DNA from: Oscillospiraceae bacterium
GTDB lineage: Bacteria; Bacillota; Clostridia; Oscillospirales; Acutalibacteraceae
DNA length: 36,312 bases
Assembly: GCA_028683785.1 (NCBI GenBank)
Contig: JAQUHC010000005.1
Span: 1-36,312 of the forward strand
Direction of reading: 5' to 3'
Shown here: positions 10,804-28,609 of the stretch, piece after piece
Numbering within the stretch: position 1 is the stretch's first letter
Layout of the letters: the number at the start of each line of letters is the position of its first letter
The notes under the pieces: generated by a model
What the model saw: the letters and a program-made list of their open reading frames with translations, nothing else
Told to the model about the DNA's origin: nothing
The model's database searches: none
Program-made: the position numbers and the translations under genes

Positions 10804-11026
10804 GCATCCGTTTTCAACAGAAAGGAATGAGCAGTATAACGAGGAAGGGCACTATATTAAATCGGATGAGCCCAAGTACCTTACCGGAACCGATCTTTAT
10901 ATATTCCCATTCAACTTTGGGCATAAGGATTTGGAGAAGGATTGATACTAAACACTGATCAGAAGCTTGATAAAAAATCACGGATGTTTTTGGCTATCAA
11001 TTCAGACCGAAAATGTATGTAGTAAA

Positions 11027-15425: not shown

Positions 15426-16409
15426 ATGAAAGACTTTGTTGAATTTCCGGCACTAAACCTCAAGTTTGGTATTTCCGACACCATTGTACAATTTCGGCTT
15501 TTCGGTATGGATATTGCGCTGAGATGGTATGGATTGCTTATCGCGATTGGTTTTTTGCTTGCCGTAATCTATGCGTTGCGCCGTGCACGCGAGTTTGATA
15601 TCGACCCCGACCGCCTGATTGATGTTACATTGGTTTCGGCTATTTTTGCCTTTATCGGAGCAAGGCTTTACTATGTTCTGTTTTCAGGAGATACAGGGGC
15701 ATATTTTGAGGAACCCCTCAGTATTTTAAGGGTTTGGGAGGGCGGCCTTGCAATATACGGCGGCATCATCTTTGCATTTATAACCGCCATATGGATGTGT
15801 CGTGTGCGCAAGGTTAATACCCTCGCGGTGTTCGACATAGCCGCGCTTGGTTTTCTTATCGGGCAGAGTATCGGGCGCTGGGGTAATTTCGCCAACCAGG
15901 AAGCGTTTGGAACCAATACCGATCTGCCTTGGGGAATGACGGGCTCGTTAATTCAGCAAGGGCTTAACAGCTCGGTTCAATTTGACCCCTCCAAGCCGGT
16001 TCATCCCACCTTTCTTTATGAATCGCTGTGGTGTATTATCGGCTTTATAATCCTTCATTTTGTATCTAAAAAAGCATACAAATTCAAAGGACAAATCTTC
16101 TCATTGTATGTTATATGGTATGGCTTCGGCCGCTTTTTAATCGAGGGGCTGCGCACCGACAGTCTGATGCTGGGACAAACCATGCGGGTTTCGCGGGTGG
16201 TGGCGGCATTATCCGTTTTCGGCGGTATTGCCCTGCTTCTCATACTCAGGGCACGGTATAATTCATTGCCGGTTGACCTGTTTGAAGAGCTGACAGCGGA
16301 TGGCGCAATCCCTGTTACCCAAGAAGAAATACCCGATTTAGGGATTGAAGCCGAAGATGATGTTGTTTCGGATGCAGAGGAAGAATCCGAAAGCGATACA
16401 TCATACTAA
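15426..16409 (+). CDS. lgt: Prolipoprotein diacylglyceryl transferase, C-terminal tail apparently truncated by a repeat insertion
   Basis: ALRWYGLLIAIGFLLA, FIGARLYYV, GGLAIYGGII, GQSIGRWGNFANQEAFG signature. Ends ...ESDTSY* where TAC TAA are the first six bases of the palindromic repeat. Confidence 0.95.
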   Translation: MKDFVEFPALNLKFGISDTIVQFRLFGMDIALRWYGLLIAIGFLLAVIYALRRAREFDIDPDRLIDVTLVSAIFAFIGARLYYVLFSGDTGAYFEEPLSILRVWEGGLAIYGGIIFAFITAIWMCRVRKVNTLAVFDIAALGFLIGQSIGRWGNFANQEAFGTNTDLPWGMTGSLIQQGLNSSVQFDPSKPVHPTFLYESLWCIIGFIILHFVSKKAYKFKGQIFSLYVIWYGFGRFLIEGLRTDSLMLGQTMRVSRVVAALSVFGGIALLLILRARYNSLPVDLFEELTADGAIPVTQEEIPDLGIEAEDDVVSDAEEESESDTSY

Positions 16410-16529
16410 ATCCATTCTAAAACATTCCAGAATAGAGCGATGCGTTCCTAATACTAATTTAAATTAAATTAGTATAGCAAGAACGCGCCATGAGCGATAA
16501 TTATGGAATAGTTATAGTTGGATTTAGTA
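16404..16529. mobile_element. MITE-like palindromic element, copy A (126 bp), inserted in the 3' end of lgt
   Basis: TIR TACTAAATCCA / TGGATTTAGTA, flanked by TCA on both sides (16401-16403 and 16530-16532). Excision restores an open lgt frame to a TAA at 16617-16619. Confidence 0.82.
16452..16474. repeat. TACTAATTTAA-A-TTAAATTAGTA minimal palindrome nested near the centre of copy A
   Basis: 11-bp perfect inverted arms around one base; the arms equal the TIRs of copies B, C and E. Flanks TAA/TAG. Confidence 0.7.
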
Positions 16530-16630
16530 TCAGATGAAGTAACAGATGATACAGATATAATAGAAACAGAAGAAAAATCCCCCGATGAAAACCCGGAGGA
16601 TAAGAGTGAACAACAATAAAGGAGACCTGT

Positions 16631-17491
16631 ATGGCAATATTACTTGACGGAAAAATTATATCAGCCAATGTTAAAAGCGAGGTTGCCCAAGAGGTGACCC
16701 GGATGAAAGCCAAAGGAATTACCCCGGGGCTGGCAGTCATCATTGTGGGTGACGACCCGGCTTCACGAACATATGTAAACAACAAAAAGAAGGTTTGTGC
16801 CGAAGCAGGGGTTTATTCCGAGGAGATCGCCCTCCCTGCGGATACGCCTCAGGATCAGCTGATATCCCTAATTGTAAGCCTAAACAACCGCAGCGATATA
16901 AACGGTATTTTGTGCCAACTGCCCCTCCCGCCTCATATTGACGATAAGGCGGTGATTGCCGCCATCTCGCCCGTAAAGGATGTGGATGCCTTTCATGCCG
17001 CCAATGTCGGCCATATTATGATCGGGGACTATACATTCCTGCCCTGTACCCCCGCCGGAGTCATGGAGATGATTCACAGCGCCGGGGTTACGGTTGAGGG
17101 GAAAAACTGCGTTGTAATCGGAAGAAGCAACATTGTGGGCAAGCCCATGGCCATGATGCTGCTGCACGAAAACGGAACGGTCACCATCTGTCATTCCAAG
17201 ACAAAGAATATCAAAGAAATCTGTAAAAACGCGGATATCCTTGTGTCTGCAGTCGGAATTGCAAAATTTGTAACCCCCGACATGGTGAAGCCGGGTGCCG
17301 TGGTAATTGATGTCGGCATGAATCGTGATGAAAACAACAAGCTTTGCGGGGATGTTGATACTGCGGCGGTGAGCGAGGTGGCGGGTTATATTTCACCCGT
17401 CCCGGGCGGAGTTGGATTAATGACCACCGCTATGCTGCTTAAAAACACGGTAACAGCCGCGAAAATGCAGAATGCTTTTATAGAAAATTAG
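16631..17491 (+). CDS. folD: Bifunctional methylenetetrahydrofolate dehydrogenase/cyclohydrolase
   Basis: VGDDPASRTYVNNKKKVCAEAG, GILCQLPLPPHID, VIGRSNIVGKPMAMML, PVPGGVGLMTTAMLL. Confidence 0.96.
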   Translation: MAILLDGKIISANVKSEVAQEVTRMKAKGITPGLAVIIVGDDPASRTYVNNKKKVCAEAGVYSEEIALPADTPQDQLISLIVSLNNRSDINGILCQLPLPPHIDDKAVIAAISPVKDVDAFHAANVGHIMIGDYTFLPCTPAGVMEMIHSAGVTVEGKNCVVIGRSNIVGKPMAMMLLHENGTVTICHSKTKNIKEICKNADILVSAVGIAKFVTPDMVKPGAVVIDVGMNRDENNKLCGDVDTAAVSEVAGYISPVPGGVGLMTTAMLLKNTVTAAKMQNAFIEN

Positions 17492-17497
17492 TACAAA

Positions 17498-17560
17498 TAC
17501 TAATTTAACATATAGACGTAGATAATATCCATACTTCTATATGTTTATATTAAATTAGTA
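17498..17560. mobile_element. MITE-like palindromic repeat, copy B (63 bp, internally shortened)
   Basis: TIR TACTAATTTAA / TTAAATTAGTA; shares the core GTAGATAATATCCA (ATAGATAATATCCA in copy C). Lies between the convergent stop codons of folD and the PPTase gene, overlapping the latter. Confidence 0.75.
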
Positions 17561-18232
17561 TTTTGATACCGCAAGGTAGGCATCGGGCAGTTCATACACC
17601 GTGATTTTGACGGTATTACCGTCTATAATACAGGTGTCGTTCTCGGTTATGCAAAAAGAGGACAGCGGAACCGATAGCCCTTTTCCGCACAGCTTCAGAA
17701 CACTTTCCTTGCATACCCATAACCTGCAAAATTCGGCTGCATATCGGTTTTTCGGCATACCCTTAAGCCGCTCAAGCTCAAGGGCATGGAAACGGCATGC
17801 AATCCTCTCCAAACGGCTTATTGAAATCCGGGGTATTCGCTGAATATCAATTCCGACCGGTCTGTCGCTTATTGCCGCCCCAACCAGCCGTTCACTGTGA
17901 GAAATATTTACATGATAATGTCTGCCGTTAACTTCAATTCCGGACGGAAAGGGTTTACCGTGCTCGGTAGGCCATCCCAGTCGGGCGGCAAGCTCGGAAA
18001 TTTCATCACGCGATTCTAAAAGGCTGTCTGTTTCGGGATAGACAAGTCCTTCGTTCGATTGATTTTTAACCAAAGCATAAAAGACCAGATATGCCGCGAC
18101 GGCAGAGTTGACCCTATCCGACGGCTTCTTTAGTTTTGCCATTTGCATCCGTCTTTGTTCGGGCAGTGCAGATTTCATTAATTCGATTATTTTTTCATCA
18201 GGTTCCGAAGTGTCGGCAATATATACAATCAT
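17555..18232 (-). CDS. 4'-phosphopantetheinyl transferase superfamily protein
   Basis: VGIDIQRI...CRLWVCKESVLKLCGKGLSVPLSSF is the Sfp-type GxDxE/WxxKEa signature. Starts one base after the fhs stop (TAA G ATG). Confidence 0.85.
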   Translation of the reverse strand: MIVYIADTSEPDEKIIELMKSALPEQRRMQMAKLKKPSDRVNSAVAAYLVFYALVKNQSNEGLVYPETDSLLESRDEISELAARLGWPTEHGKPFPSGIEVNGRHYHVNISHSERLVGAAISDRPVGIDIQRIPRISISRLERIACRFHALELERLKGMPKNRYAAEFCRLWVCKESVLKLCGKGLSVPLSSFCITENDTCIIDGNTVKITVYELPDAYLAVSKY

Positions 18233-19904: not shown

Positions 19905-20017
19905 CATAATCAAATCAGTCCTTCTTTTTGTATGTGAAAAATACATTTATAATATTAGTATTTTGGCAAGAGTGTGTCAAGTTTTTAATCAGTGTTTAGC
20001 ATAAAGGGGCATTTCAC

Positions 20018-20737: not shown

Positions 20738-20827
20738 TACTAATTTAATTTATAAACATAGATAATATCCAAGTCCGTTGTATATCTTCTTATTATGATA
20801 TTTCTATATATTTATTTTAAATTAGTA
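20738..20827. mobile_element. MITE-like palindromic repeat, copy C (90 bp)
   Basis: TACTAATTTAA...TTAAATTAGTA flanked by TGA on both sides. Reverse complement of copy E except for a 1-base indel. Confidence 0.88.
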
Positions 20828-22225: not shown

Positions 22226-22265
22226 GAATTAATTTTTCCCCTTTCATGTTGGCAGAAATTGTTTT

Positions 22266-22357
22266 GATTGATTTAATTTATAAACATATATAACATCTAA
22301 AGTCTATTATATATCTTCTTATTATGATGTTTCTATAATATTTATTTTAAATTAATA
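22266..22357. mobile_element. MITE-like palindromic repeat, copy D (diverged)
   Basis: Same orientation and same interior as copy C (TTTAATTTATAAACATA..., TATATCTTCTTATTATGAT, TTTATTTTAAATTA), with degraded ends. Confidence 0.78.
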
Positions 22358-28518: not shown

Positions 28519-28609
28519 TACTAATTTAAAATAAATATATAGAAATATCATAATTAAGAAGATATACAACGGACTTGGATATTATCTATGTTTATAAATT
28601 AAATTAGTA
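28519..28609. mobile_element. MITE-like palindromic repeat, copy E (91 bp)
   Basis: TACTAATTTAA...TTAAATTAGTA flanked by TAA on both sides. Reverse orientation relative to C, one indel difference (CTTCTTATTATG vs CTTCTTAATTATG). Confidence 0.88.

Follow-up and report, generated by a model that had tools for sequence, protein, structure and literature searches.

A recent MITE insertion very likely truncated the acidic tail of Lgt and separated lgt from folD

Results

We analyzed a 36,312-nucleotide stretch of DNA (the window), which is contig C74; the draft genome to which it belongs comprises 2.0 Mb in 185 contigs and is 88.9% complete. With high confidence, we conclude that a recent MITE insertion in this stretch truncated the C-terminal tail of Lgt and separated lgt from folD by sequence. 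The initial annotation had placed a 126-bp inverted-repeat element with TCA flanks at this junction, and its coordinates are correct to the base (Table 1). The termini of the element read TACTAAATCCA and TGGATTTAGTA, with TACTAA at the left end. The element is an imperfect palindrome that generates a hairpin spanning its entire length. Folded as RNA, it reaches -46.3 kcal/mol compared with -20.2 ± 3.3 kcal/mol in shuffled sequences (n = 200; z = -8.0), which places the palindrome far beyond chance. Its GC content is 31%, compared with 47% for the window, and it contains no transposase gene.

Table 1 Coordinates of the lgt-folD junction and of related elements (window positions unless a contig is named)
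Feature	Position	Strand	Description
lgt, prolipoprotein diacylglyceryl transferase	15426-16409	+	327 aa as present; TIGR00544 E 1.1e-59; PF01790 E 2.4e-76
Left TCA target-site copy	16401-16403	.	Fits TNA
Family A MITE, nested form	16404-16529	.	126 bp; TIR TACTAAATCCA
23-bp palindrome TACTAATTTAAATTAAATTAGTA, hairpin tip	16452-16474	.	Bare end pair of MITE family B
Right TCA target-site copy	16530-16532	.	
Stranded lgt 3' end	16530-16619	+	28 acidic-tail codons (46% D+E) after TCA; original TAA stop
folD	16631-17491	+	286 aa; ATG at 16631
Family B copies in window	20738-20827, 28519-28609		TNA duplications TGA and TAA
B inside A	C142:399-617, C113:20077-20295, C165:11574-11792		219 bp
A inside B	C159:16201-16419, C173:735-953		219 bp
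Tandem 23-bp end pairs inside A elements	C4:13871-14115, C171:661-905		245 bp
126-bp copy in a gene (L002)	C118:13828-13953		Frame of 452 aa (weak DUF2229 match), in its last 30 codons
Element in a gene	C140		Last 3 codons of 172
Elements in genes	C184, C4		Candidate long open frames

The annotation also held that the element is mobile, a claim that is borne out by at least 40 copies at unrelated places in the same genome, most of which are 95-100% identical (these copy numbers are lower bounds; because only 40 candidates were scored, more copies may exist). The same N of TNA appears on both sides in 30 of the 34 copies with both flanks in an unselected list counted by reading, and the pattern TNATACTAAATCCA yielded 114 matches compared with 0 for its reversed control. 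Among copies selected for matching duplications, the target is T-N-A within an AT-rich stretch. Full 126-bp copies with matching duplications (n = 26) diverge from their consensus by a mean of 0.5%, and the copy in the window is one base off; because genomic copies differ so little from the consensus, we consider the insertion to be recent. Searches of 39 other genomes (11 from the same genus, which includes Candidatus Avimonas genomes) and of plasmid, phage, and viral contig collections returned no match of the element, and an Rfam search over the window returned nothing. With its TIRs, target-site duplication, AT-rich composition, length below 500 bp, and multiple dispersed copies in mostly intergenic positions, the element represents a new MITE family, of a type already known, that is in a recent burst and is unusual in its nested composition.

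The Lgt domain (residues 29-272; PF01790) is untouched by the insertion. The protein now ends in ESDTSY followed by TAA, and both the tyrosine codon and the stop (TAC TAA) come from the element. Removal of the element plus one TCA restores a 354-aa Lgt frame with a TAA at 16617-16619, 11 nt from folD in the predicted pre-insertion arrangement; the predicted empty site is GATACATCAGATGAAGTAACA. The ribosome-binding site of folD (AGGAG) lies directly after this old TAA and is intact.

Comparison with relatives backs the earlier proposal of a 354-aa, acidic-tailed precursor. All nine of the element-free relatives from the same genus that have a complete gene encode a longer Lgt with a long acidic tail (351 aa in the closest relative and 373, 373, 380, 405, 369, 400, 393, and 378 aa in the others), and in none of them does Lgt stop at TSY. 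In a more distant relative (L108), Lgt comprises 343 aa. The tails of all relatives are acidic and weakly conserved. In the closest relative (G002/L071), whose Lgt and FolD are 81% and 96% identical to those in the window, Lgt ends in SEDEATADPTEQ, followed by TAATAAAGGAGAC, and folD starts 14 nt after the Lgt stop. Two further close relatives have a 373-aa Lgt and an 11-nt gap to folD. The tight coupling of lgt to folD that had been proposed thus holds for the three closest relatives, in which the genes lie 11-14 nt apart, and does not extend to the others, in which they are separated by 29-160 nt. Apparent insertions in lgt and folD of L146/L087 are runs of N rather than elements.

Alignment to the closest relative also provides a coding counterpart for 16530-16619. 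The lost 28 residues score 55 against that relative's tail, compared with 33.9 ± 5.2 for shuffled tails, only 4 of 2000 of which scored as well. The tails end in EQ followed by TAATAAAGGAGACTCGTATG in the closest relative and in EQQ followed by TAAAGGAGACCTGTATG in the source genome, and the alignment across the joined junction is gap-free except for indels of whole codons. At the level of DNA, the tail alone was matched by 557 of 2000 codon shuffles, so that its similarity is not significant, as expected for a fast-evolving tail; moreover, an open frame as long as the stranded tail arises by chance in 12.5% of shuffles. The case for the pre-insertion gene therefore rests on similarity of the protein tail, gene lengths, spacing, and target duplication together. 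Truncation of Lgt is probably tolerated, judging from its untouched domain and the varying tail length among relatives.

Two other accounts of the junction were considered. The element could have been in the operon for a long time under selection, as a terminator or an mRNA-processing hairpin that keeps expression of lgt apart from that of folD, with the short Lgt being the normal form. A very stable hairpin does lie between the genes, and RNase III cleavage at the ends of MITEs (Correia elements) has been reported in Neisseria (PMC10969869); the hairpin between lgt and folD might be cut by this enzyme as well. Unlike an intrinsic terminator, the element does not combine a GC-rich stem with a coding-strand run of T, and neither a promoter-like site nor a terminator-like site on the + strand was found in 16200-17700. 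A long-established operon part is also difficult to reconcile with a sequence that is missing from all relatives searched, recurs at no fewer than 40 unrelated places, and shows the near-zero divergence of a recent arrival. We consider this account very improbable. Still less probable is an artefact of assembly or binning that misjoined a repeat into lgt: although the draft is fragmented into 185 contigs and several copies of the element lie at contig ends, the sequences on both sides of the element follow the lgt-folD order seen in relatives, and a misjoin would not produce the perfect target duplication. Recent MITE insertion remains our explanation for the junction.

Counting gene contexts for 50 elements with their flanks joined, we found that few interrupt a long open frame. 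In the copy on C118, the lost 30 residues are replaced by an element-encoded peptide that ends in SHTKSILKHSRIERCVPNTNLN. The better-supported copies that interrupt genes lie near 3' ends, which would be expected if an insertion survives only in the tail of a gene; these copies are too few to test this.

Sorting of elements that combine TACTAA ends with matching TNA duplications in 222 kb of sequence revealed several families. Family A includes 126- and 103-bp forms, family B measures 90-91 bp and has TACTAATTTAA ends, family C measures 103 bp (TACTAATCTCA), and family D measures 156 bp (TACTAATATCC). Sequences at 17497-17562, just 3' of folD, and at 22265-22350 look like shortened or decayed relatives of family B. 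A possible further family is marked by an end, TACTAAACACTGATC, near 10.9 kb (10942-10970) with an inverted partner at 19977-20005. Relatives of families C and D are present in other genera of the same bacterial family; in one such genome (G081), a 156-bp MITE that has TACTAATCTCA ends and targets TNA is present in over 20 copies (e.g., L317:184-339 and L318:218-373).

The two forms of family A differ at the hairpin tip. The 103-bp form has a plain tip (GCGTTCTTGCGGGCAAGAACGC) and is missing the 23-bp palindrome, which in the 126-bp form consists of just the two ends of family B. This palindrome occurs 67 times in the genome, and nearly all of the occurrences that were read are located in the core of an A or a C element; some are flanked by TAA on each side. 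Judging from this location and these flanks, the palindrome seems to be what is left of an old B insertion after the loss of its middle, subsequently carried along with A and C. Complete B elements within A elements, and the converse, are present as well (Table 1).

A search for the partner transposase in the 88.9% of the source genome that is represented found no transposase element with TACTAA ends. Matches to PF01609 were two transposases (on C55 and C165) that are IS1182-like by reading and have their own inverted repeats; NF033580 gave only weak matches to these same two proteins, whose ends are not TACTAA, and PF13586 and PF13359 had no match in this genome. A search of 38 further stretches for long elements with TACTAA at their boundaries found none. 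An IS5-type transposase in G081 was rejected as the partner, as its ends are CTAGGGTGTGTTGACAC. The 3-bp, TNA-type target duplication fits the IS5 family (IS1031-like), in which IS1237/ISLxx6 generate three-base duplications of TTA or TAA (PMC2516522). The size of the target thus points to an IS5-like transposase as the putative mobilizer. Its gene may lie in the missing 11% of the genome, have been collapsed in the assembly, or have been lost.

Discussion

Our findings are best explained by a non-autonomous DNA transposon, the 126-bp MITE with its TNA target and 3-bp duplication, which inserted at a TCA within the lgt sequence that encodes the acidic C-terminal tail, presumably mobilized in trans by a DDE transposase that is most likely IS5-like. 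The first two codons of the element, TAC TAA, stop Lgt at 327 rather than 354 aa, so that 28 codons and the old stop now lie stranded in the stretch from the element to folD. The truncated Lgt presumably works, and lgt and folD are presumably still on one transcript, now with a stable hairpin between them. The insertion was probably kept because it spares the catalytic domain and affects a tail that varies in both length and sequence. More tentatively, and with less than even odds in its favor, one transposase may mobilize MITE families that are alike only in their TACTAA ends and TNA targets, such that one family inserts into another and the resulting composites multiply and give rise to new families. 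The composites would include the cores that contain the bare 23-bp end pair, itself possibly once mobile.

The truncation of lgt is a good example of what MITE insertion does, but an ordinary, textbook one. It provides a clean natural case in which a MITE shortens a widely conserved enzyme at its variable tail and enters an operon, with relatives that document the state before insertion. The nested families could show how new MITE families come from old ones.

Similar to IS5 groups with 3-bp duplications (IS1031-like; IS1237/ISLxx6, PMC2516522), the element duplicates a T-N-A target; it differs from them in that the source genome yielded no IS5-family transposase that has TACTAA ends. Prokaryotic MITEs such as Chunjie of Geobacter uraniireducens, QMITEs of Coxiella, and Correia elements have been reviewed (PMC10969869). 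The element resembles these in its size below 500 bp, TIRs, target duplication, AT richness, high copy number, mostly intergenic location, stable hairpin, and occasional disruption of a gene. Unlike these, it combines a TACTAA TIR with a TNA target, occurs only in this genome among those searched, has a nested core derived from another MITE family, and was found with no partner IS. Finally, the element is reminiscent of Rickettsia palindromic elements (RPEs), which are palindromic, approximately 150 bp in length, and inserted within genes. Translation continues in frame through an RPE, which adds a peptide, whereas the element in lgt, with TAA at bases 4-6, stops translation at its second codon and truncates the protein.
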